From positions 17,750 to 81,749 of the forward strand of contig JADFYG010000025.1 of the NCBI GenBank assembly GCA_015233155.1: a stretch of DNA of 64,000 bases. Direction: 5' to 3'. Shown one piece after another: positions 6,390 to 34,000 of the stretch. The translations under genes were made by a program, and so were the position numbers. Numbering within the stretch: the first letter of the stretch is position 1; each line of letters begins with the position of its first letter. A model generated the notes under the pieces. The model ran no database searches. It was not told the DNA's origin and worked only from the letters and a program-made list of their open reading frames with translations. This DNA is from Candidatus Rifleibacteriota bacterium (GTDB taxonomy: Bacteria > Muiribacteriota > Ozemobacteria > Ozemobacterales > Ozemobacteraceae).

Positions 6390-7127
6390 TTACGGCTTTT
6401 GTCCGGTGAAATAAAGGGCATGGGAATCAGGCTTCAGCGCACTTTTGTCAGTATCAGCAAACAAAGTGATGTTTTGAAAACCGGAACTTTCCAAACCTGT
6501 TTTCAGTTCCTGCATGGTCAGCGGATAAAGAAAAACTCTGTTGGTCTGGCTTTCTCCTGACGCAAATTCAGTCAGGACAGTCTCAAAGATCAATCGGGAT
6601 TCCTGTTCGGGATAGATGTAACGTCTTTCAAACCTGATTCCGTTCTGCTCGATGACAGGCAGACCTGGAAGCCTGTCGCGGAGAATTCTATCGTAATGGA
6701 TAATCTGACCGAAGAAGATTCCGTCAGGTTGCAGTATAGAAAATACCTGGCTGGCCATTGCTCTCACCGAGGCCGGATCCGGAAGATGGGCCATTGTATT
6801 CCCGAGACAGACTACCGCTTCGAACTCGGCGGGTGAAAACAGGTTTTTCAACTGTAGCATGTTTCCCGCCTGAAATGAAACTCGGGTATTTTGATATTTC
6901 CGCGCCAGACGGACCATCGCAGCATCAAGGTCGATACCGGTGACTGAATGTCCCATCCGGCCCAGGGCATTGGCTAGTACGCCCGTAGCACAGCCTATGT
7001 CAAGGACTTTTCCACCAGCGGCCGGCAGATATCCGTGAATAAACGGAGCCAGATCTTCATCGAGAGGAAATATCCGGTTATACATTGCCGCGATATTTGA
7101 ATAAAAAGCCACGACAGCCTCCTTCAC
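6390..7127 (-). CDS. Class I SAM-dependent methyltransferase
   Basis: VLDIGCATGVLANALGRMGHSVTGIDLDAAMVRLAR motif I/II. Confidence 0.85.
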   Translation of the reverse strand: MKEAVVAFYSNIAAMYNRIFPLDEDLAPFIHGYLPAAGGKVLDIGCATGVLANALGRMGHSVTGIDLDAAMVRLARKYQNTRVSFQAGNMLQLKNLFSPAEFEAVVCLGNTMAHLPDPASVRAMASQVFSILQPDGIFFGQIIHYDRILRDRLPGLPVIEQNGIRFERRYIYPEQESRLIFETVLTEFASGESQTNRVFLYPLTMQELKTGLESSGFQNITLFADTDKSALKPDSHALYFTGQKP

Positions 7128-7188
7128 GAAGATGGTTTTCCATAATAATCCAATCAGGGCGTGGGAACAATCCCATTTTCATCAGCCC

Positions 7189-7343
7189 CAGGGTCATTTA
7201 ATTCTCGACAGGTAGAGCAGCGACCGCCGGGCGCGCCGCATTTTTTGCCACGAGCTTTCTCGGCGGGCCCGGCGGTCCCGCCCTACCATTCGTTGAAATC
7301 AGTCTATTCAAGCCATTCTACGGTCGAGAATTAAATGACCCTG
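7189..7343. repeat. ~155-bp intergenic element bounded by perfect 21-bp inverted repeats with a second nested GC-rich inverted repeat
   Basis: CAGGGTCATTTAATTCTCGAC (7189-7209) and GTCGAGAATTAAATGACCCTG (7323-7343); inner GACCGCCGGG (7222-7231) / CCCGGCGGTC (7268-7277). Confidence 0.8.
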
Positions 7344-7449
7344 CATCGTTCCCGGGAATCAGCTGAGTCAGGTTATAACGGGTTGATTCAAAGATAGATT
7401 CGCTGTATTATTTCGGCGGTAATTTCATTTTCTGACGGAGGAGTCAAAG

Positions 7450-7731
7450 ATGTTCAAGTCCAACGAGTATTTTGATGGAAAAGTAAAATCCATAGCCTTC
7501 ACTACCGATGAAGGACCGGCGACCATTGGCGTAATGGCACCGGGCGAGTATGAATTCGGAACATCAAAACTTGAAATAATGACTGTAATCAGTGGCAAGC
7601 TAACGGTAAAACTTCCAGATTCCAAGGAGTGGAAAGAGTTCCGGAAAAACGACAGTTTCACCGTTCAGGCCGGGAAAAAATTCAATCTGAAAGTGGAGGG
7701 TGATACCTCCTATCTCTGTTTGTACAAATGA
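7450..7731 (+). CDS. ppnP: Pyrimidine/purine nucleoside phosphorylase PpnP (DUF1255, cupin)
   Basis: 93 aa; [56 protein letters not shown], highly characteristic. Confidence 0.95.
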
Positions 7732-7745
7732 GCTGAGTCTTCAAC

Positions 7746-10295
7746 ATGAACGCACGACACAATAAGCTGCGACAACAATCAATTCTTGTTCTTGTTCTTT
7801 TTTCATTCCTTTTTTCCATCTTCAGTCCGGCTTTTGCCGGAAACCAATCACCCCTTACTACCATTGAAGCAAGCTATCAGCGGGCTTATCAGGCCTATTT
7901 GTCGAGCGTGGTCTCAGGTGCTTCCAGCGACGAAATACAAAAAAACCTTGATGCATACCTTAAGGTTTATGGTGAGTATCTAAAAACTCAGAGCCCTAAG
8001 GGGCCTGTTCAAAATCCGGTTACATCGAGTTATTCAACCGGCTCGGGCGCTGCTTTAAAAACAGCTGATCAGCAGGCATTATCGGCCACTTCCATCGCCA
8101 CGGGGCCACAATCGCTGATAAAAACCACACAGAGCTGGCTTGGGAAGATTTTTACAAAGGCCAAACAAATCCTCTTTGGCGGCGAAAAAAATGCAATGCC
8201 GCTACCGGAAAAAATCCTCTGGAATATTGGCAAGGCACTTGTTCCTGCTTTCGGAGTGATGTTCAGCGCGGCACTGCTTGTTTCGGTATCCCCGCTGCTG
8301 ATGATTTTCGGTGGAATCGCTGTTGGAGCAAGCCTCGGGGGACTGCTTACATATTCATATGAAAAAAGGATGAATTCCAAATATCGCGAAACCCCCAAGG
8401 AAAACGGTAAAATCTGGAGGGATGTCGCCGTCCAAGCCGCTGTTGATGCAGTCATAGCACCTTTTAATCTTGCCACGGTCGGATTGTTCGGAATGATAGG
8501 GCCCACCGTTGGCGCTGCCATTGGGCGGGTCGCTTTGACTCAGGCCGGACTGACCTTTGCCGGGAGCGCCGTTTCTTCCGGAGTGGGCGGACTGGTTAAA
8601 CACGCTTTTGCCACCAATTATTTCCATTACCCGGAAAAGATTGCCTCCGATGAAAAAAAGATCGATGATATGCTCGATGCACATATTGCCGCTGGAACCA
8701 CCCTTTCTGACGCAGAACTGAAAGAGCTTGATCGACTCAGGGCTGACATCGATTCCATGAAAAGTGAAGATTATACACCGGCCGATCTTGGGAAAGATTT
8801 GAAACGTGCGGCTGTTTCTGCGGTCATAAGCGGTTTTGCCGGATCAGTTTTCGCCGACAAGGCTTACACTGCTGATTCAGGCCGATGGGCCGACCGGATT
8901 GCATTAAAAGTTTTTGGAACCGCAGCCCACGGGAAACAGATTTCCGCTCTGGTTTCAACCGTTCCGGTGAATTTCGTGAGCGGAGTCTCCGGAGCCGCTC
9001 TTGAAAAACATTTTATCAGCCAGGACATCCTGAATCTTCAGAGTCAGCAGAGCCAATACCAGGCCGGTACCATCGGACATCAATATTATGATGGACTCAT
9101 CAGGCAAATGGAAGCAAAGCGCGACTCCATTAATCTGACGAACGCCGGTGTTGATTCCATGGTGAACAATTTTGCAATTCGCGCCGCCCAGATTACTGTA
9201 CAGGGTCTGAAATACAATCTGGTCGACGCCCCACAAGCAAAAAAACAAATCCTTGATGATAAATATCGATCCCAGAATCCTGAATGGCAAAAGGCTTCGG
9301 GGCTTTATGACAAGTATCAGAATGTCATGAAAGGGATTCCTAATCCCGTTAAATTCAAGAGTCCCGTTGCATACGCCAAAGCCCAGGCCGATTATGTAAA
9401 AAATCTCGAATCTGCCAGACGTGAATGGCTGGGACAATGCCTGAATGCGCAAAATGTGGAAAATCAGCCCAACAATCAGTTGTTGAAGCAGCAAATCGAA
9501 ACCCAGTATGATCATGATCTGAAAATGAACCAGATACTCGAACTGGGCCGCTTAAAGGGGGGCATGGCCCACATCGATGCCATGAAAACCATCATCAAGG
9601 ACCAAAATCCAAAACTTCAGATGAATGATCAGGATTTGACCAAATTAGCTTGTCAGGCCATTGCCAAATCTTATTCTGACAAATTCACTTCCTGCACTAC
9701 GAAAGTTCAGGAAATTGAAGGCACAATAAAAAAATATGATGATTACAAGGCCGGACGCCTTACCCTCAGTGACGCTGAAGCCAGAAGTCTGGAAGCTCAG
9801 CGTGATCTCATAAGTCCTTCTCAATACAAAGCGGCCCTTGTAGAAAAACAGGTGTATGAACTGAAATCCAGCAATGTTCGTTGGGATGATGTTGAAAAAA
9901 GAATGCCGGAAATTCTTGCCCAATCCGAAAGGATGACACTTGATAAATACGGCGGCAACTGGGGAAAAGTTCTTATTGCTGAAATGTATGCCAATGGACT
10001 CGCTCAGTATAAATATAATCCTGATGGATCTGTCCATTTTAAGGATGAAATGAAAAATATCGCAGCGAAAGTGCCGGGTATGATTGAATCCGGAGTGGTA
10101 AATGACTACAAGACACGGGTTAACAATGCCATAATTTCATCCATAATCCCTGCAAACTCTGCTCAGCAAAATGTGTTTGAAAGAAATATGCAGAGTGTTG
10201 CCAAAACCGCGATCACAGAGGGAACTGGTGGGATCATCGATTCAGTTTACGGCGCCTCCAAGGACAAGATCATTGGAGGATTCTCCGGACATTAG
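7746..10295 (+). CDS. Large exported protein of unknown function with Gly/Ala-rich hydrophobic segments and a long helical C-terminal half
   Basis: 849 aa; N-terminal signal (ILVLVLFSFLFSIFSPAFAG), hydrophobic stretches around residues 165-275, no family recognised. Confidence 0.75.
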   Translation: MNARHNKLRQQSILVLVLFSFLFSIFSPAFAGNQSPLTTIEASYQRAYQAYLSSVVSGASSDEIQKNLDAYLKVYGEYLKTQSPKGPVQNPVTSSYSTGSGAALKTADQQALSATSIATGPQSLIKTTQSWLGKIFTKAKQILFGGEKNAMPLPEKILWNIGKALVPAFGVMFSAALLVSVSPLLMIFGGIAVGASLGGLLTYSYEKRMNSKYRETPKENGKIWRDVAVQAAVDAVIAPFNLATVGLFGMIGPTVGAAIGRVALTQAGLTFAGSAVSSGVGGLVKHAFATNYFHYPEKIASDEKKIDDMLDAHIAAGTTLSDAELKELDRLRADIDSMKSEDYTPADLGKDLKRAAVSAVISGFAGSVFADKAYTADSGRWADRIALKVFGTAAHGKQISALVSTVPVNFVSGVSGAALEKHFISQDILNLQSQQSQYQAGTIGHQYYDGLIRQMEAKRDSINLTNAGVDSMVNNFAIRAAQITVQGLKYNLVDAPQAKKQILDDKYRSQNPEWQKASGLYDKYQNVMKGIPNPVKFKSPVAYAKAQADYVKNLESARREWLGQCLNAQNVENQPNNQLLKQQIETQYDHDLKMNQILELGRLKGGMAHIDAMKTIIKDQNPKLQMNDQDLTKLACQAIAKSYSDKFTSCTTKVQEIEGTIKKYDDYKAGRLTLSDAEARSLEAQRDLISPSQYKAALVEKQVYELKSSNVRWDDVEKRMPEILAQSERMTLDKYGGNWGKVLIAEMYANGLAQYKYNPDGSVHFKDEMKNIAAKVPGMIESGVVNDYKTRVNNAIISSIIPANSAQQNVFERNMQSVAKTAITEGTGGIIDSVYGASKDKIIGGFSGH

Positions 10296-10308
10296 GGGAT
10301 GATCATAG

Positions 10309-10578
10309 ATGCGCCTGGGAATATTTTTGTGCCTGGCCGGCGGTTTCACACTCATATTTCTGAACCCCGAGGATTTCCTGGCACTGACTTTTCGTGCCCT
10401 GATCTTTGTTTTTCCCGCCCTCTTTTGCATATATAATGCCGTGGCTGACAAGGACTACTTTTTTGAATCAGACAGTGCGCTGCCTTTTGTCTTTCTTTTT
10501 GGTCGCGACGGGGCGCGAGTCTATTATATTTGTTTTGGCATCTTAATCCTTTATTTGGCCTTCACTTATTTCAGATGA
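10309..10578 (+). CDS. Small hydrophobic (membrane) protein
   Basis: 89 aa, almost entirely hydrophobic, begins 14 nt after the preceding stop on the same strand. Confidence 0.6.
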   Translation: MRLGIFLCLAGGFTLIFLNPEDFLALTFRALIFVFPALFCIYNAVADKDYFFESDSALPFVFLFGRDGARVYYICFGILILYLAFTYFR

Positions 10579-10629
10579 TGGGGGCTGCGATGGTTTTCAT
10601 CACCAACTCAATTGTCGTTTTTCCGGATA

Positions 10630-11526
10630 TCAGCCTTTTTGAGTAAGAAAAACACCTGAAATGACAAGAGCAGCGCCAACGAAAAAGGAGATTGGAACGA
10701 TTTCGCCGAGAACCAGCCAACCCATCGCAGTTGCAACAACCGGTTGAAGATTAGAAATAACAGCCACTTTTCCGGTTTCAAGATAGCCCAGGGCCCATGT
10801 CCAGACAAGGTAAGCCACGATGGAAGTCAGGAAAGACTGATAAAACAAGGAGCCAACCCCTGCCATGGATACGTGGGAATAATCCTCGACCAGAAGATGG
10901 GGAATTCCAAGGGGCAAAAAAAGTACGGAGCCGATCGATAAAGAAAGCGCCGTGACATAAAGTGGACGATATTTTTTTAATAATCGCTTATTTATAATCG
11001 TGTAGAAACCCCAGGCAATAACTGCCAACCCTATAAAACCGTCTCCTCTGAGCGTCAGCGCTGAAAGGGAAACACCTTTTTCAAGAAGTATCACCAACAC
11101 ACCAGAAAACCCAAGTGCGATGCCAACGCACTTCAGCAAGGTAATACTCTCACTCAAAAAAACAAAAGACAAAAACATTACCACCATTGGCGTGGTTGCA
11201 TATAATAGCGCTCCATGGGCAGCTGGAGCATCTTTGATTCCATAGAGAAACAAACCCTGATTCAGTGGAACCCCAAGTAAAGCGGCGAGAAAAAAATCGC
11301 CATAATCCTCGCGTCGCGGTAATTGCATCTCGCCCAGAAAGGCTAAAATGGAGATCAGTACAACTCCTGCAAGCAGAAACCTGATGCAACCAAACGAAAT
11401 CGGAGTTAATTCGCGCAACCCTATTTTAGCTACAATGTATGTGGATCCGGTTATCAGTTGACAGGCAACCAGAGACCAAAGGGCCACATTCGCCTGAGAA
11501 GAAATCTCAAATTCAAGATTATTCAT
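10630..11526 (-). CDS. EamA-family (DMT) transporter
   Basis: 298 aa, ten hydrophobic helices, TSFRF-like GSTYIVAKIGLRELTPISFGCIRFLLAG and second EamA repeat. Confidence 0.88.
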   Translation of the reverse strand: MNNLEFEISSQANVALWSLVACQLITGSTYIVAKIGLRELTPISFGCIRFLLAGVVLISILAFLGEMQLPRREDYGDFFLAALLGVPLNQGLFLYGIKDAPAAHGALLYATTPMVVMFLSFVFLSESITLLKCVGIALGFSGVLVILLEKGVSLSALTLRGDGFIGLAVIAWGFYTIINKRLLKKYRPLYVTALSLSIGSVLFLPLGIPHLLVEDYSHVSMAGVGSLFYQSFLTSIVAYLVWTWALGYLETGKVAVISNLQPVVATAMGWLVLGEIVPISFFVGAALVISGVFLTQKG

Positions 11527-21645: not shown

Positions 21646-22035
21646 TCACCAGAGGATCTTCACGCCATAGTGGGCGAAGACTCTGTCTGCCGATACAATA
21701 GTCAGCTTTTCCGTCATCGCTTGGGAGATCAACAGTCGATCAAACGGATCGCGATGATGAAAAGGCAGCTTTTCTATCTTTGCCGCATGGTGCAACTCGA
21801 TGTTCAACAGCGTAAAACCGTTGGCTGCCAGATGCTCCGAGACAAAACGCTCTATTGGCATGGCCAACTGTAACTTGCCAAGACTCGATTTTATCGCCAG
21901 CTCCCAGCAACTGGCCAAGCTCAGATAACACTCATTGTTTACATCAGCTATCGCTCGCCGGGCCGCCGCAGTAAGCTCTGGAGCGTCATCGACCCACCAG
22001 AGGAAAACATGTGTATCGAGGAGAAAACGCAACAT
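21646..22035 (-). CDS. PIN-domain VapC-like toxin
   Basis: FLLDTHVFLWWVDD, SLASCWELAIK, DPFDRLLISQA, IVSADRVF: four PIN acidic positions intact. ORF extends to 22044 with an upstream Met. Confidence 0.9.
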   Translation of the reverse strand: MLRFLLDTHVFLWWVDDAPELTAAARRAIADVNNECYLSLASCWELAIKSSLGKLQLAMPIERFVSEHLAANGFTLLNIELHHAAKIEKLPFHHRDPFDRLLISQAMTEKLTIVSADRVFAHYGVKILW

Positions 22036-22262
22036 CAGACACAATCCTTGAAATCCGCCGGTAGTGCATCAAAATCGGGTGCTATGGATAGAATCTGACC
22101 CTTTGCTGAACCGGGACGCCGCTTTCTTATTATCTTGTTCACCGGCAGCAGCCTGAGGAGAGGCTTGTTATCCCTTGCTATAACAATTTCTTCTCCAAGC
22201 AAAGCCAGTTTGACAAGCTCAGAGAAATGGGACTTAGCTTCAGCGATATTGTATTGCTTCAT
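22035..22262 (-). CDS. Phd/YefM-family antitoxin
   Basis: MKQYNIAEAKSHFSELVKLALLGEEIVIARDNKPLLRLLP; directly upstream of and abutting the PIN toxin. Confidence 0.9.
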   Translation of the reverse strand: MKQYNIAEAKSHFSELVKLALLGEEIVIARDNKPLLRLLPVNKIIRKRRPGSAKGQILSIAPDFDALPADFKDCV

Positions 22263-24052: not shown

Positions 24053-24537
24053 GACTACCCCCCATCGAAGTAGCGGCGGCGGTCATCGCACGCGACGGGA
24101 AGATTCTCCTGGCAAAGCGTCGCGGAGGAGACCTCGACGGCCTCTGGGAATTCCCCGGAGGTAAAATCGAACAGGACGAAACCTGGGCGCACGCAGTCGA
24201 ACGCGAGATTCTCGAAGAATTGGCGCTCCCGGTCATCGCCGGAACCAGACTGCTGATCCTCGAACATGAATATCCCGACAAACGGGTGCGTCTGCATTTT
24301 GTGAGATGTGTGCTGAAACATGAGTTGCCTGCTGACGAAACGAAACATTCAGTACATGAAACTGAGTTACATTTTGTGCAATCCATGCCGAAACATGAGT
24401 CACATACAGAAGAAAGTGGCTGGTTCGAACCCGGCCATTTTCCACTATCCAACTTTTGTCCCGCAGATCGGATAGCCATAAACCACATCGACTGGAAATC
24501 AGTCCTGGAGCATTCAAAGGATATAAACAGCAGATGA
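24049..24537 (+). CDS. NUDIX (MutT-like) hydrolase with internal duplication
   Basis: GLWEFPGGKIEQDETWAHAVEREILEEL Nudix box; ATGA overlap with the upstream gene. Confidence 0.9.
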   Translation: MRLPPIEVAAAVIARDGKILLAKRRGGDLDGLWEFPGGKIEQDETWAHAVEREILEELALPVIAGTRLLILEHEYPDKRVRLHFVRCVLKHELPADETKHSVHETELHFVQSMPKHESHTEESGWFEPGHFPLSNFCPADRIAINHIDWKSVLEHSKDINSR

Positions 24538-26673: not shown

Positions 26674-27926
26674 ATAAATCTCGCGAGCGGGGGCCGGCAT
26701 TGCTGACCTTTGACGAGGCATTGGAACGCGTTATCTCCGAAGCCTCTCACCACAAGCTTTCTTCGGAGGGTGTGTCTCTCGATGCCGCATGCGGAAGAGT
26801 TCTTGCAGCCGCCCTGGCGGCTCCGGGAGACCAGCCTGCATGCGATAATTCCGCAATGGATGGATATTGCATCCGGCATTCAGATGCGGCGTCTGCAAGG
26901 CCCGAAGCACCGATCACGTTGCCTGTCGCGGGTGAAGCCATGGCAGGGCGTCCGCTGGCTGCACTTCCCGACATGAACGCTGCATACATTGCCACCGGCG
27001 GCATGCTTCCAGAAAACGCTGATACCGTTGTCAAGATCGAAGACGTCTCCGTCAGCGCTGACGGCAAGTCGGTGACCTTTTCCTCCATCCCACCCGTCGG
27101 AACCTATATTCGCCGCCAGGGAAAAGATGTGCGAGCCGGTGATATTGTACTTCCGGCCGGTGAATCTTTATCACCTTTCGCCATCGGAACTGTAGCTTCG
27201 CTGGGTCGGATGGTCATTCCCGTAACACGACAGCCGCGCATCGCGCTCATGACATCCGGGGACGAAATTGTGATGCCCTTTGACGAGCCAAAGCCGTGGC
27301 AGGTCCGCAACGCAAACTCGTATGCGCTCGCGTCTCTGATTCGCGAATCGGGAGGAGTACCAGTCGATTTCGGCATCGTGCGCGATTGCCCGAAACGGGC
27401 CATGGCTGTTCTTCGCGATGCTTTCTCGACCTGCGATCTTATTGTGACATGCGGCGGCGTATCCATGGGAAAAAAAGACCCTTTCATCGCGGCGTTTCGC
27501 GAACTGGGAGTAGATATCCGTGTTCACGGCGTCGCCATCAGGCCCGGCAAACCTTTCTTTTTCGGCCTGTTTGAGGGGAAGCCACTGTTCGGCCTGCCGG
27601 GAAACCAGGCGAGCTGCGTCGTGACTTTTGAAATATTTGCGCGACCATTCATACGCCGCGTTCTTGGCGATCGCTGCCCTGACAGGCTTTTAATGCGCCT
27701 CTCCCCTACCCTGCCCCTTGTCAATCATACGGGCCGCGATCACTTCATGCGCGCACGCCTGACCGTCGATCCCGCGAACGATGGCCGACCTTGTGCTGAC
27801 GTTTTTCAGCAGCAGGATTCCCACCTTCTCACGTCTTTGATCGGCGCCAATCTGCTGGTTCGACACCCAGGCTCGCTTGAATCTGCCGGTACCGATACCT
27901 TGCTTGAGTGCCGCCTTACTTCCTGA
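26667..27926 (+). CDS. moeA: Molybdopterin molybdotransferase
   Basis: PACDNSAMDGYC, TSGDEIVMPFDEPKPWQVRNANSYAL, TCGGVSMGKKDPF, RPGKPFFFGLFEGKPLFGLPGNQASC; ATG at 26667 overlaps the ptb stop. Confidence 0.93.
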   Translation: MLNKSRERGPALLTFDEALERVISEASHHKLSSEGVSLDAACGRVLAAALAAPGDQPACDNSAMDGYCIRHSDAASARPEAPITLPVAGEAMAGRPLAALPDMNAAYIATGGMLPENADTVVKIEDVSVSADGKSVTFSSIPPVGTYIRRQGKDVRAGDIVLPAGESLSPFAIGTVASLGRMVIPVTRQPRIALMTSGDEIVMPFDEPKPWQVRNANSYALASLIRESGGVPVDFGIVRDCPKRAMAVLRDAFSTCDLIVTCGGVSMGKKDPFIAAFRELGVDIRVHGVAIRPGKPFFFGLFEGKPLFGLPGNQASCVVTFEIFARPFIRRVLGDRCPDRLLMRLSPTLPLVNHTGRDHFMRARLTVDPANDGRPCADVFQQQDSHLLTSLIGANLLVRHPGSLESAGTDTLLECRLTS

Positions 27927-27941
27927 TTTTCCGAAGTTTCA
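27802..27941 (+). repeat. Direct repeat copy 1: moeA 3' end plus downstream spacer
   Basis: agcaggattcccaccttctcacgtctttgatcggcgccaatctgctggttcg...ccgaagtttca; matches 32900-33040. Confidence 0.92.
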
Positions 27942-27971
27942 ATTTTCAGTTTGGAGGCAAAAAGCCAGTCA

Positions 27972-28970
27972 TTATTTCCCGGACTCAGTGGTTCGGAAAG
28001 CTCGAATTTCCGCCTTTTGGCTGCCGCGATGAGGAACGGCAACGAAAAGCGTTCCTGAACTCGCGTCCAAAAGCGAAGTTCGGGCTCCATTCGCGGTCTC
28101 GATCGTACCGGCACTCATGTAACTGTCAGCGTCGATCTGGGTGAATAGGCTGACCTGGCCTGCTCCACCGGAGACATACACTTTTTTGCAGGTCGGATCA
28201 TAGAACACATCGTCCGCATCGCCGACAATTTTAAGGCTCGCAACCGCTTTGCCGTTATCGGTGTTGTACACCAGGAGCATGGCGGGTTTCCGGCATCCGA
28301 CGAAGAGGCGGTGGCTTTGCTCATCCAGGGCCATTGGAAAGTTTGACCTGGCATTCGTAATCGGCCACCTTGCAACCACGGCTCCTTTATCCCGGTCAAT
28401 AACCGCGACATGTCCCGCTTCCGGGACGTTTACGAATATTCGCCTCCCGTTTTTTTCCAGCTGAAAGGATTCCGGATGGCCGTCTAGTTTTATCTCTCCG
28501 ACCTTCGTACCGGTTTGAGGATCAATAAGGGCCACACCCCCTTCCCCAAAGCCGACAAACACTTTTTTTGCGATCGGGTCATATCGGACGTTGTCGGCGT
28601 CCGGGAGATTGTCGATCGACGCCAGAAGCTTGAGCATCGCATCGTAGATCCGGCACTTGCCGTCCCCGCCGCTTGCAACGACCAGGCGCTGCACATCGGA
28701 AAGAAATTCAAGCCCTTGCGGTTCCTCGAAGCCCTTGATCGAATCAAGCTTCTTGCCGGTCGTCATATCGACAACTTCTACCGTATTGTTCCCAAGCCCC
28801 GCGATAAAGAGTCTTCCGGCCTTGGCGTCGACGGCCATATGGTCGATTCGACCTTCCACCTCGTCCAGCGCGATGACCTGCGCCGGTTCGTGTGTCGGAT
28901 CAGCGACCGCCGACGCGGCAAACCCGCAGACCATGAAAGCCGTCAGAATCATTAAGAGGAAATGTCGCAT
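27972..28970 (-). CDS. Secreted YncE/NHL-like beta-propeller protein
   Basis: Signal peptide (MRHFLLMILTAFMVCGFAASAVA) and repeated blades such as KVFVGFGEGGVALIDPQTGTKVGEIKLDGHPESF; ORF extends to 29033 with a less likely start. Confidence 0.82.
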   Translation of the reverse strand: MRHFLLMILTAFMVCGFAASAVADPTHEPAQVIALDEVEGRIDHMAVDAKAGRLFIAGLGNNTVEVVDMTTGKKLDSIKGFEEPQGLEFLSDVQRLVVASGGDGKCRIYDAMLKLLASIDNLPDADNVRYDPIAKKVFVGFGEGGVALIDPQTGTKVGEIKLDGHPESFQLEKNGRRIFVNVPEAGHVAVIDRDKGAVVARWPITNARSNFPMALDEQSHRLFVGCRKPAMLLVYNTDNGKAVASLKIVGDADDVFYDPTCKKVYVSGGAGQVSLFTQIDADSYMSAGTIETANGARTSLLDASSGTLFVAVPHRGSQKAEIRAFRTTESGK

Positions 28971-29047
28971 GGTTTCTCCTTTGCGAAGGCCGAGGTCAAG
29001 CCGTTGGATGTTAACAAGTTCTGCTTTTACCACTTCCCTCGCGACGG

Positions 29048-30916
29048 TTAAAATGAATCGTCAAACGCCGTTGCCGACGCCGAATCAAAACCCTCGGAGG
29101 TGGAGGCCGGACACGGAAGGTTAAAGGAATAGGTGGCAATGTTCCCTGTTACATAGAAGCGGAACCCGTTCGCCCCGTCGAAAGAAACGACTGGCTGGCG
29201 CGGATCGGCCGGAATATTCGCGGAGGCTTTCATCATCACTTTTCCATACGACTTATTTATTGATTGGATGATATATTCAAAACCCCTCAATGTCCTGGCA
29301 TCCTCATCGATATTGACCGGAGTAACGCGAATCACCCCGGAACCGTTCTTGAAATTCTTGTACATGTTGAGTTGAGATGCTTCGTCCAGGCTTTTCTTGT
29401 TCGCAATTTCACCGTAGGGCGCACGAAACAGACCACCCACATCGAACATCAGCGGCCTTCTTTCGAGAATTTCAAGAGCGCTGACGGCGGCATACACGGC
29501 TCGGTCCTCCCCTTTCACGATAATGTGTTTCTGTCCGGTATCAAACATCGCTTTTCCGTCGAAACCTAATGAAGCCATGATATCGTTTATTATTTTTGAA
29601 GCCTTTTCCACAGAAACCTCTTTTAAGTCTGGCGAAACAAACGGTTTTAAATAATAGCCTCTCATTCCGGAAATGGCCTTGGGAAGACCGACCAACCAGG
29701 TGCCTCCCTCATGGGATGCTTCGAAGTCTCTCGATGCGGCAATAGCCTGAACCAGAGAGTAAAATGGAATACTTTCTCCGTAACAGATTAACGTCACGGT
29801 TCCGGAAACCACATCATCGCAAAGAAGTTTTTCCCCTTCTGAGGCAATTATGGATTCAAGTATTGAAGTGATCGGGGTTTCAAAATAGGCAAATCCGGAA
29901 GGAATTAGCGAAGAGTCACTGACATTACATTCTTCTTCTTTTGCATCTCCAATGGATTCACGTTCATTAAGGGAGATCATTGGAAAAGTCGCTGGCGCGG
30001 CTTTGATAAAGCCGGAAGAAACATGTTCAACTCCCCATTTGATGATGAACTCCCCGGAGGCAAGCCCAACGCATTGCGTTCCCATGTGAAGTTTCAGGGG
30101 ATGATCCTTTATAAAAAGTGAATGTTCAAGCTGAATTGATTCAGACGAACTCTTATTTGAAAAATGGAGGTTCGTTTTAAGAGTTGCCTCCTCGTCAAAA
30201 GTGATGTCACCGATGCCTTCGCCAGAAAAAGACCATTCAGAAGGCGTCTGAGGAACAATGGCGAATTTGAACGGCTGATTTCCCTGCGCATAAAATGAAA
30301 ATGAGGCAATCATTATTGATTCAGGCTTCTTTTCCACGTTGCATGAAATCCGTAATGAGCGACAGATTAAATCGTGAGAATATTGAAACATTTCAAAATC
30401 TGATCTTTCCGGAGATCTACCCGCCAAAAAAATTAGATTTCCTTCGGGACTGAAGAATTTTTTTGCCAGGGGAAAAGCCTTCCGGTAAAGATCGAACAGC
30501 TCCAATTTATTTCGTAAAGTCTTCCTGATAATCTTAAACTGTTCTTTTTTACATTGCTCTTCCTGTTCGTCTGAATGGAGCAAAAAAACGTTCGCTATTT
30601 TCGTCATCCGGAAAGGAATGACTTGTCCCAAAAGATTAACCATCTCTTCCCAACAGCCATCACCGGAGCATCTCAAAATCAGCTTTTCAATTTTTACCGG
30701 AGGAAGGGCGGTTATAACGTTGAACTTTCCCAATTTAGCCATTTCCAGAAGAGCTTTGTGAATGGTTTTTCCGGAATAATCGACTTGTCTGTCTGCCTCT
30801 TCTGCCGCTAGAAACGATTGTAAAACTATAATCACAATAAACAGAGCGAAGAAAAGAATAATGTGCCGCCCTGTTTTACATTCTCTCATGATTCTTTCCT
30901 CTCCATTCATCTCCAA
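29048..30916 (-). CDS. Secreted secretin/STN-domain-like protein without a recognisable secretin barrel (paralog A)
   Basis: QVDYSGKTIHKALLEMAKLGKFNVITALPPV (STN/secretin-N-like), later VSVEKASKIINDIMASLGFDGKAMFDTGQKHIIVKGEDRAVYAAVSALEILERRP (secretin N-domain-like). Confidence 0.65.
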   Translation of the reverse strand: MEMNGEERIMRECKTGRHIILFFALFIVIIVLQSFLAAEEADRQVDYSGKTIHKALLEMAKLGKFNVITALPPVKIEKLILRCSGDGCWEEMVNLLGQVIPFRMTKIANVFLLHSDEQEEQCKKEQFKIIRKTLRNKLELFDLYRKAFPLAKKFFSPEGNLIFLAGRSPERSDFEMFQYSHDLICRSLRISCNVEKKPESIMIASFSFYAQGNQPFKFAIVPQTPSEWSFSGEGIGDITFDEEATLKTNLHFSNKSSSESIQLEHSLFIKDHPLKLHMGTQCVGLASGEFIIKWGVEHVSSGFIKAAPATFPMISLNERESIGDAKEEECNVSDSSLIPSGFAYFETPITSILESIIASEGEKLLCDDVVSGTVTLICYGESIPFYSLVQAIAASRDFEASHEGGTWLVGLPKAISGMRGYYLKPFVSPDLKEVSVEKASKIINDIMASLGFDGKAMFDTGQKHIIVKGEDRAVYAAVSALEILERRPLMFDVGGLFRAPYGEIANKKSLDEASQLNMYKNFKNGSGVIRVTPVNIDEDARTLRGFEYIIQSINKSYGKVMMKASANIPADPRQPVVSFDGANGFRFYVTGNIATYSFNLPCPASTSEGFDSASATAFDDSF

Positions 30917-30930
30917 CTCATTCCACTCTA

Positions 30931-32835
30931 CTAAAAACTGCTGTCAAACGCATGATCAAATGCGTCTTTATTTGTCGTAGATGTCGTAGATGTCGTAGAT
31001 GCCATGGATGCAGAATCGCTTGAAATAATGTCTGAAACGAGAGAGTCGTCCGCTTTTGCCTCATATGTCGGACTTCCGATACCCCCGAAATACAGTTTAG
31101 CCTCAGCAGGATTTTCCAGATGTATCATCAATCTATCGGGGGCGGGGCCAAAGGGGGTAAAGGCTTCTATCGCCGTTTTCCCCCAACCCGTGTTCAACAG
31201 TTCAAAATCAACCTTTGCACCGGCGTATCCTTTGCAACCGAAAACAAATGGAACAACCTCAAACCTCGAGACCTCTTGAAGTTTATTCAATCTGATCATG
31301 TAGGGAATATTCTCAGGAGCGGAAGCAATCTGTTTCACCCGTTCACCGGAAGTTTGGATTATAACGTTCAACCCAAACAGAGTCGGCGGTCTGTCAAGAA
31401 TATCGATGAGATCGCGAACGCATTCCGCGCTGATCAATCCATCCCAACTGATGAAGACTGAATTGATTCGCGGATCAGCACTCATTTTCTCCGAAAGACC
31501 AAGCCGCGCTGACATTTCGTTGACCATCCGGGTAAAGCTTTCCGAATCGTTGTATGAGAGGTATTTGGAAAAAATGATGCAGCCGCGATCTATGCACTCC
31601 CTTTTTGCCAAAACGTATTTGTTCCCAACGATCCAGCAGTTACCGACTTTTCGAATGGCGAGCCCTCTGATACTGGCGAGAAGGCGCATTAATTCCTCGT
31701 AATAGATCCCGGGGCCGCGTAGGATAAGCGTTATCGGTTCTCTACAAGCCTGCGCACAGACAAGGGAGCCGGACGAGGCGGAAGCGACGAATTCGAAAAC
31801 TTCGGAGAGAGGCCGATCAAGGTACGTGAGGTTTTTCAGAGCATCCGGGTCTGAATCAGAAGAGACAGAACCGCCACTCCCCGCTGCTTTTTCATGGCTC
31901 TTCGAATGGTCCTGCGAATGATCTTTCGAAGATTCCGAGCCAATAACGTCCAGTAATGGGTGCTCGAAATCTTTCATGGGTATGAAAATCGGCGTCATCT
32001 CAAGCGAAAGCATTTTGGCACCCAGCTTCACAACCTTGGATACCAAAACTCCGCTTTTGGTCTGCGATGCCTCAATGGATTCGCACTTCATTCCCGAGGA
32101 AGGAATGGAAAATGAGATACTGGAATTCAGATAAATCGAGCCGCCGTTTTTTTCAAAATGAGCAGTCACCGTCCCACGAGCATTTAACGCCTCAAAAGCG
32201 TTGGGGGCCAAGGAAAAAGTAACCGGCCGGTTGTTCAGTGTTATAACCGACAAAGAGGCAATAACAGAGGAGTCGCCGATACTCTTAACTTGAAGCGACA
32301 GTTGAATAAAATCCTTGGGTACATCCATGGAAAGGAATTGCCGATGGACTTCATTCATGTCATCTCGAAAGCCGAACATTACAAGAATGTTTCTGGAAAG
32401 ATCGCTCCAGATTCTTACGGGATAAGATGAAATGCAGGACAGTTTCTGAGAAAAGTCTTCGAAAATTCCATAGTGAGAACGGAGGATCGTTGTGTTTTTG
32501 CCAATGAGACGGCCTTTCTCACCATGAGGAACCAGACACCATGTACCATGATAATCATGAGCTTCCACGCCACAATGCTCTGCCAGGGTTGACAAGATCT
32601 CGTCGCCATTAACTGCCGATTTAACGGAAAAAGAGGCAATCGGGGAAAGCGGTACATCGGCAATGATATTCAGTCTTCCGGCTGAGGCAATTTCCACAAG
32701 AGCTTCACCCAGGTTTTTCCCGGTGAAGTCCCATGTCCTTGGTTTATCCTCTCCAAAACATCTTGAGAAGCAAATTACAAAGAGCATAATCGAAATAAAT
32801 AAAGACTTAGAGCTTGCTCCGACTGCCATTAGCAC
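30931..32835 (-). CDS. Secreted secretin/STN-domain-like protein (paralog B)
   Basis: TWDFTGKNLGEALVEIASAGRLNIIADVPLSPIASFSVKSAVNGDEILSTLAEHCGVEAHDYHGTWCLVP plus later MVNEMSARLGLSEKMSADPRINSVFISWDGLISAECVRDLIDILDRPP; same organisation as paralog A. Confidence 0.65.
   Translation of the reverse strand: MLMAVGASSKSLFISIMLFVICFSRCFGEDKPRTWDFTGKNLGEALVEIASAGRLNIIADVPLSPIASFSVKSAVNGDEILSTLAEHCGVEAHDYHGTWCLVPHGEKGRLIGKNTTILRSHYGIFEDFSQKLSCISSYPVRIWSDLSRNILVMFGFRDDMNEVHRQFLSMDVPKDFIQLSLQVKSIGDSSVIASLSVITLNNRPVTFSLAPNAFEALNARGTVTAHFEKNGGSIYLNSSISFSIPSSGMKCESIEASQTKSGVLVSKVVKLGAKMLSLEMTPIFIPMKDFEHPLLDVIGSESSKDHSQDHSKSHEKAAGSGGSVSSDSDPDALKNLTYLDRPLSEVFEFVASASSGSLVCAQACREPITLILRGPGIYYEELMRLLASIRGLAIRKVGNCWIVGNKYVLAKRECIDRGCIIFSKYLSYNDSESFTRMVNEMSARLGLSEKMSADPRINSVFISWDGLISAECVRDLIDILDRPPTLFGLNVIIQTSGERVKQIASAPENIPYMIRLNKLQEVSRFEVVPFVFGCKGYAGAKVDFELLNTGWGKTAIEAFTPFGPAPDRLMIHLENPAEAKLYFGGIGSPTYEAKADDSLVSDIISSDSASMASTTSTTSTTNKDAFDHAFDSSF
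30973..30999 (-). repeat. Three exact copies of a 9-bp coding microsatellite
   Basis: tgtcgtaga x3, encoding STTSTT near the C-terminus of paralog B. Confidence 0.95.
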
Positions 32836-32899
32836 TACCTCACCTGACTATTTTAGAGTAAATTATATTGAAATACAAATCGAAAGTGAAGTTACGTAC

Positions 32900-33040
32900 T
32901 TTTTCCAGAAGCAGGATTCACACCTTCTCACGTCTTTGATCGGAGCCAATTTACTGGTTCGGCACCCCGGTTCGCTTGAATCGTCCGGGACCAAAACCTT
33001 GCTTTAATGCCGCCTGACCACCTGAATTCCGGAAGTTTCA
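32900..33040 (+). repeat. Direct repeat copy 2: detached moeA 3'-end fragment
   Basis: ccagaagcaggattcacaccttctcacgtctttgatcggagccaatttactggttcggcacc...ggaagtttca; encodes QDSHLLTSLIGANLLVRHPGSLESSGTKTLL versus MoeA QDSHLLTSLIGANLLVRHPGSLESAGTDTLL. Confidence 0.92.
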
Positions 33041-34000
33041 GGAACTCCAGGATTCCAACAGGTAGGCAAGCGTCAACAGGCCGTCTCCGAAGGGGCCATG
33101 GCCCTGATGGGCGATAATGCCTGGTTCCCACCAGCCCATGAGAAGGTCGGCAAAGCCTGCCCTGTAACTCATTTCCAGAGGACCGTCATGCACTTCGATG
33201 ATTTCGATACCATCGGAGAAGGGCTTTACCAGATCGACAGTACCGGGGGGGCCGATTATCGTCCCCCGTCCGGAACGCTGTTCATGTAAATATTGGCCGA
33301 CCGCTGCCACCATTTCTGTAGTCGCGAAATGCTTTCCGGCCGGCCATTCGATTTCGAGACCCTGGCCGTCCGGGGAAATTCTGGCGCGAGGGCCGGAAGT
33401 ATTACGCTCACGGAGAACGATGCATCTCCCTGAATCGGCCTTTTCCCGCAGATATTGTTCGATTTCCGGGAATGGACATTCCAGGGTTGAAAGGCGAGGT
33501 CCCTCGCCAATATTGGGATCAAGCAAGCCTTCCAGTGTCTGCAGATATGGCTTTATAATTTCGGTTTCGCCAAGCACACCGGTCTGACGCAATGGTTTCG
33601 TGACAACCTCTTCCTGAATCGCGTTTTCGACCGGCCCGCCGTGCGCGGCCAGCGGAAGAAGAGTCCAGAAACCTTCGGCGTCCTCGTCGAGATACAAGCC
33701 GATCTTCATTCCGCGGCGTGCTATCGCCACGGAAAGTGCGATAACCGGAACCGCCGCGCGCGGATGAAATACATTCAGCCCCAACGCAGTGAGACCCTGA
33801 GCTACAGTATTTGTCACGCTTTTGGCTCCACCGCGCGCGGCGTGAGCAAGAATCAGCGACGGAGATGACGCTCCTGTGCGAAGAAGATGCGCCTTTAGTT
33901 CGAGACCGTTTTCCAGATCGTCCAGTTTGAAGCCGTTGCCAATATCACCGCTCCGGAAGCGGCATGGCATTACGATATTTGTCGATTTGTCAGCACTCAC
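33038..34000 (-). CDS. Degenerate alpha-D-phosphohexomutase-like protein
   Basis: Fold-level similarity by eye to phosphohexomutase domains I-III (e.g. VTNTVAQGLTALGLNVFHPRAAVPVIALSVAIARRGMKIG; VAAVGQYLHEQRSGRGTIIGPPGTVDLV; DGIEIIEVHDG...GPFGDGLLTLAYLLE), but without TASHNP, DGDADR or RxSGTEP motifs. Confidence 0.55.
   Translation of the reverse strand: MSADKSTNIVMPCRFRSGDIGNGFKLDDLENGLELKAHLLRTGASSPSLILAHAARGGAKSVTNTVAQGLTALGLNVFHPRAAVPVIALSVAIARRGMKIGLYLDEDAEGFWTLLPLAAHGGPVENAIQEEVVTKPLRQTGVLGETEIIKPYLQTLEGLLDPNIGEGPRLSTLECPFPEIEQYLREKADSGRCIVLRERNTSGPRARISPDGQGLEIEWPAGKHFATTEMVAAVGQYLHEQRSGRGTIIGPPGTVDLVKPFSDGIEIIEVHDGPLEMSYRAGFADLLMGWWEPGIIAHQGHGPFGDGLLTLAYLLESWSS

Follow-up and report, generated by a model that had tools for sequence, protein, structure and literature searches.

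A decaying stub of a second moeA gene beside a beta-propeller gene and a secretin-N-domain-like operon in a Candidatus Rifleibacteriota genome, possibly left by one-sided uptake of related DNA

The window analysed here, a stretch of 64,000 nt, belongs to contig C103 of a draft genome of 6.3 Mb, which is 84% complete and split into 185 contigs. It carries an intact moeA gene followed by three genes on the opposite strand and, beyond them, by a gene that yielded no family match in Pfam, NCBIfam, or PHROGs and that is referred to below as the 33038 gene (Table 1). The three intervening genes, hereafter the cargo, lie between two direct copies of the moeA 3' end (A and B) and correspond to the beta-propeller gene and two secretin-like paralogs listed in the preliminary description of this DNA; the propeller is YncE-like, and the two paralogs, P1 and P2, have secretin-N-like domains.

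Table 1. Positions of the features discussed in the text (window coordinates unless a locus is named).
Feature	Position	Strand	Remarks
Intact moeA, 411 aa	26691..27926	+	MoeA N, MoCF, and C domains (Pfam PF03453/PF00994/PF03454); 3' end is copy A
Repeat copy A	27799..27941	+	Final 128 nt of moeA and the next 15 nt of spacer
YncE-like beta-propeller	27972..29033	-	NF052280, 1.4e-20, below cut-off
P2, secretin-N-domain-like	29048..30916	-	Second gene of a conserved two-gene operon
P1, two N0-N1-beta sandwich repeats, no secretin pore domain	30931..32835	-	First gene of the operon; Secretin_N match weak
Promoter-like site TTCACT-17-TATAAT	32862..32890	-	Precedes the P1-P2 operon; lies 7 nt away from the B junction
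Abrupt breakpoint between cargo and truncated moeA relic	32897..32898	.	2/10 and 4/20 identity to the left; putative illegitimate joint
Repeat copy B, relic of a second moeA 3' end	32898..33040	+	In-frame TAA at 33005-33007; natural end CRLTT-TGA in register
Convergent gene, no assigned family (33038 gene)	33038..34000	-	Stop codon formed by the final 3 nt of B; in relatives, part of a moaA-ROK block apart from moeA
P1-P2 operon loci	29048-32835; L098:1-3487, L099:321-3929, L101:6443-10041, L102:7296-10906		Window locus and loci in relatives

Homologs of the propeller were all distant, with about 30% identity to those found in genome G013 and elsewhere in the same genome (C98). P1 matched the N domains of PilQ, HofQ, and GspD with E-values down to 7.5e-8, and P1/P2 carry the N0/N1 periplasmic domains that count as a mark of secretins. 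A structural model of P1, of moderate confidence (mean pLDDT 65, built from seven sequences), presented a signal helix and two N0-N1-beta-sandwich units, with a disordered tail at the end; these domain names are a reading of the order of the elements. Foldseek searches with this model recovered mostly secretins, at low TM-scores. No Pfam match to the C-terminal secretin pore domain was obtained, and the model places there the second N0-N1-beta sandwich. Most P1 and P2 proteins have a C-terminal tail close to D-A-F-[DE]-S-S-F. As a guess, the two proteins might act as a periplasmic partner or scaffold.

The P1-P2 operon is fast-evolving (about 20% identity) and was found in several genomes of the family. 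The order of the two genes was kept in the relatives that have both of them, but the genes around the operon were unrelated and it was never located at moeA. Repeats similar to A and B were searched for around the operon in six relatives: five showed none, and the only repeats of the sixth (L103, about 70% GC) were short or of low complexity. That the operon, with no recombinase of its own, spreads from genome to genome by pushing aside the 3' ends of one core gene after another, moeA being one instance, seems to us exceedingly doubtful.

Pairwise alignment of copies A and B extended without gaps over 143 nt at 84% identity, with an offset of 5099 nt between them, in agreement with the direct repeat of about 85% identity, covering the moeA 3' end and spacer, that had been proposed from a hand alignment. 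This was by far the longest and best repeat found in the 64-kb window. A search of the whole genome with the B region recovered A (E = 4e-38) and no other noteworthy match, the best on another contig being of 23 nt at 91%. The repeat starts within the moeA reading frame and its right end falls on the stop codon of the 33038 gene. Both ends are abrupt, the flanks of A and B sharing 2/10 and 4/20 bases on the left side and 0/10 and 2/20 bases on the right. Extension of B to the left, into the promoter region, raised its MoeA profile score from 31.5 to 39.0, a gain of 7.5 bits reached by 1 of 400 shuffled sequences. The gain built up gradually and came in part from sequence antisense to the start of P1, while the pairwise comparison with A detected no homology of B left of 32898. 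Homology to MoeA beyond that point was considered too weak and was not accepted.

The differences between A and B bear the mark of protein-coding constraint. The 20 coding differences were distributed as 7, 0, and 13 over the first, second, and third codon positions, so that none of the 43 second positions was changed, and the NG86 method gave a dS of 0.52 and a dN of 0.07 (ratio 0.14). When decay of B was simulated as neutral from the start, zero changes at second positions were seen in at most 0.2% of the runs (P ≤ 0.002). In a relative-rate check against 15 MoeA sequences of relatives, two of which (L023 and L090) apparently come from one contig, B was closer than A in 5 cases and equally distant in 10, and at one of the differing residues (K instead of Q) B has the residue common among relatives. 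These codon positions, the dN/dS ratio, and the distances to the 15 relatives indicate that B diverged within a working moeA and was truncated later. The synonymous excess noticed in the preliminary description is thus real, and its proposal that both copies had diverged inside functional moeA genes before being joined agrees with the simulations and the outgroup distances. As to its present state, B carries a GAG to TAA change six codons before the natural stop and hence is a relic and not a functional end; behind this TAA, it still reads CRLTT* in register with CRLTS* of A. Judged from its codons, B is a stub left by another moeA, one that used to be functional and was cut off fairly recently. 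Since 31 of 35 residues are common to A and B, against 10-17 for relatives, both can be placed in one narrow lineage.

Gene order was compared among 26 genomes of the family including this one, all the others belonging to other genera, in which the MoeA sequences are up to 56% identical to the one studied here. A pattern scan for MoeA relatives gave its only match in a public Candidatus Riflebacteria genome. In relatives, moeA lies in one block, followed by a conserved set of genes, and in two genomes a methyltransferase gene, a ptb-like gene, and moeA are found together. The 33038 gene belongs to a separate block, moaA-ROK-33038 gene. It is a conserved gene, located beside a ROK kinase gene and moaA in much of the family. 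Adjacency of moeA and the 33038 gene was absent from every relative examined, all of other genera, and the link between B and the 33038 gene appears to be private to the present lineage. In the genome under study, the genes usually found downstream of moeA are together on contig C126, without moeA (L122:3894-8523; G000 C126, about 6893-11522), and no moeA remnant was detected upstream of this relocated operon. As that operon is intact there without moeA, the neighbourhood has been rebuilt. By comparison of gene orders, then, moeA has parted from its ancestral downstream partners and the arrangement seen here is derived; an order moeA-propeller-paralogs common to all relatives, which would have spoken against a recombinational origin, was not encountered.

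The pattern of A and B points to two functional moeA histories, and it would look alike whether the two copies were orthologs of two lineages or one of them a paralog. A duplication within the genome, with both moeA copies remaining functional up to a dS of about 0.5 before a deletion spared only the 3' end of the one neighbouring the 33038 gene, accounts equally well for the functional divergence of B and requires no donor. It demands, however, a long-lived redundant moeA followed by a deletion, and no second canonical moeA was found in any of the 26 family genomes searched, the extra MoeA matches being distant paralogs (about 28-38%), contig-end fragments, or B itself. We regard such a duplication as unlikely.

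The explanation that we prefer, with a probability of about one half, is one-sided homologous uptake (homology-facilitated illegitimate recombination, HFIR) of DNA from a congener carrying moeA, the propeller gene, and the P1-P2 operon, B being the relic of the displaced resident gene. Two congeneric lineages would each have had a functional, diverged moeA with different downstream neighbours, the 33038 gene facing moeA in the first and the propeller gene and P1-P2 operon following it in the second. A DNA fragment of the second lineage would then have entered the first and recombined on its left side by homology, somewhere in or upstream of moeA, while its right side would have been sealed by an illegitimate joint that cut the resident moeA about 125 nt short of its end. 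The gene that came in, now A, would have replaced the resident one, of which the last 143 nt of gene and spacer (B) would have stayed beside the 33038 gene, decaying. The integrity of moeA across the left side and the non-homologous joint on the right are what HFIR would produce at its junctions, although a truncated duplicate predicts the same. A source in another species rather than a duplicate, the identity of the incoming copy, and the pairing of a homologous with an illegitimate event are the parts of this scheme that we infer.

The composition of the cargo speaks, if anything, against this uptake from a congener. Its codon usage was the same as that of the neighbouring genes, with no foreign signal, which fits a congeneric donor but also fits no transfer at all. 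The GC content of the P1-P2 genes is 44-47% vs. about 55-58% for moeA and the propeller gene, which may mean that parts of the cargo differ in origin. Codon usage also bears on the possibility of an assembly chimera, in which contigs of two co-occurring species would have been misjoined at a point between B and the promoter of P1. As given above, the genome is an incomplete draft of many contigs, and the moeA versions on the two sides differ at species level or more; against a misjoin, codon usage is continuous across both sides and the junction is shared with no other contig of the genome, given the 23-nt best match described above. A chimera seems to us quite unlikely.

Genes that could have moved the cargo by themselves were also sought. 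No integrase, transposase, or tRNA gene was found in the cargo or in the other scanned genes of the window, as had been remarked for integrases before. Genomic islands with an integration site at the 3' end of a gene duplicate that end as direct repeats around their cargo and keep the gene intact. The locus shares with them the direct repeats of a gene end and an intact moeA; unlike in those islands, no integrase was found here, and the repeats are 16% diverged throughout. The longest identical run between A and B is of 23 nt, which is expected with P = 0.27 if mismatches are placed at random at 84% identity; thus, no perfect att core beyond chance was detected. In addition, none of the family genomes, which are of other genera and have a different moeA neighbourhood, was seen to carry other cargo at moeA, and a literature search found nothing on moeA as an island site. 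The resemblance to a site-specific element inserted at the 3' end of a gene, suggested in the preliminary description, was thus not supported. An island with the 3' end of moeA as its attB, whose integrase has since disappeared, would explain the direct repeats and the restored gene, and yet the lack of an integrase in the 5-kb cargo or the scanned window genes and of an identical core beyond chance, together with the empty record of other cargo at moeA in the family, make it extremely improbable. Insertion of a transposon was not supported either, with no transposase found and a repeat that is a 143-nt gene end and not a short target-site duplication.

Integration of a circular molecule bearing the last 143 nt of a moeA through a single (Campbell) crossover would likewise yield direct repeats of the shared stretch only, as an additive insertion with no integrase. 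Its entire homology would be those 143 nt at 84% identity, a poor substrate: such a stretch is too short for a single crossover to be efficient, whereas homology on one side only leaves a stub of this kind. The cargo, moreover, contains no plasmid genes; P1 and the propeller-region DNA had no matches on plasmids, and P1 and the 33038 gene had none in viral contigs. A Campbell integration is for these reasons very unlikely.

HFIR, the mechanism preferred above, has been shown experimentally in Streptococcus pneumoniae, A. baylyi, P. stutzeri, and E. coli (PMC3240628). The cases described there resemble the present locus in having homology on one side and a non-homologous junction on the other, no recombinase gene, and a resident sequence cut at the joint. 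They differ from it in that the parental sequences and the microhomology at the joint are known, an HFIR product being recognised by 3-10 bp of microhomology at the illegitimate joint and usually a deletion in the recipient, and in that the insertions average roughly 1 kb, compared with about 5 kb for the larger cargo here (PMC3240628). A displacement of HFIR type has also been proposed for T6SS effectors of Vibrio and for Rhs genes, where old 3' ends or immunity genes are stranded downstream (PMC5361080). As here, the imported version takes over and the old 3' end comes to lie downstream of the new cargo; in those systems, however, the diversifying gene is itself under selection and arrays build up, whereas at our locus a housekeeping cofactor gene serves as anchor and a single relic is found (PMC5361080).

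The locus is most likely a clear example of an already known kind of recombination scar, seldom preserved so clearly. If this is true, an uncultured phylum would offer here a natural record of interspecies one-sided recombination in which the stub of the displaced gene can still be read, and a core cofactor gene would be able to anchor the import of unrelated cargo without an integrase. The understanding of the recombination process itself is left unchanged by the present case.

Two other features of the window deserve mention. A PIN toxin/Phd-YefM antitoxin pair (21646-22262) is located between a gene for a proton-antiporter subunit and a methyltransferase gene. Finally, a Nudix-like (mutT) gene contains, at positions 24295-24415, an imperfect direct repeat of 46 nt (74% identity), by which a peptide is repeated near the C-terminal part of the protein.
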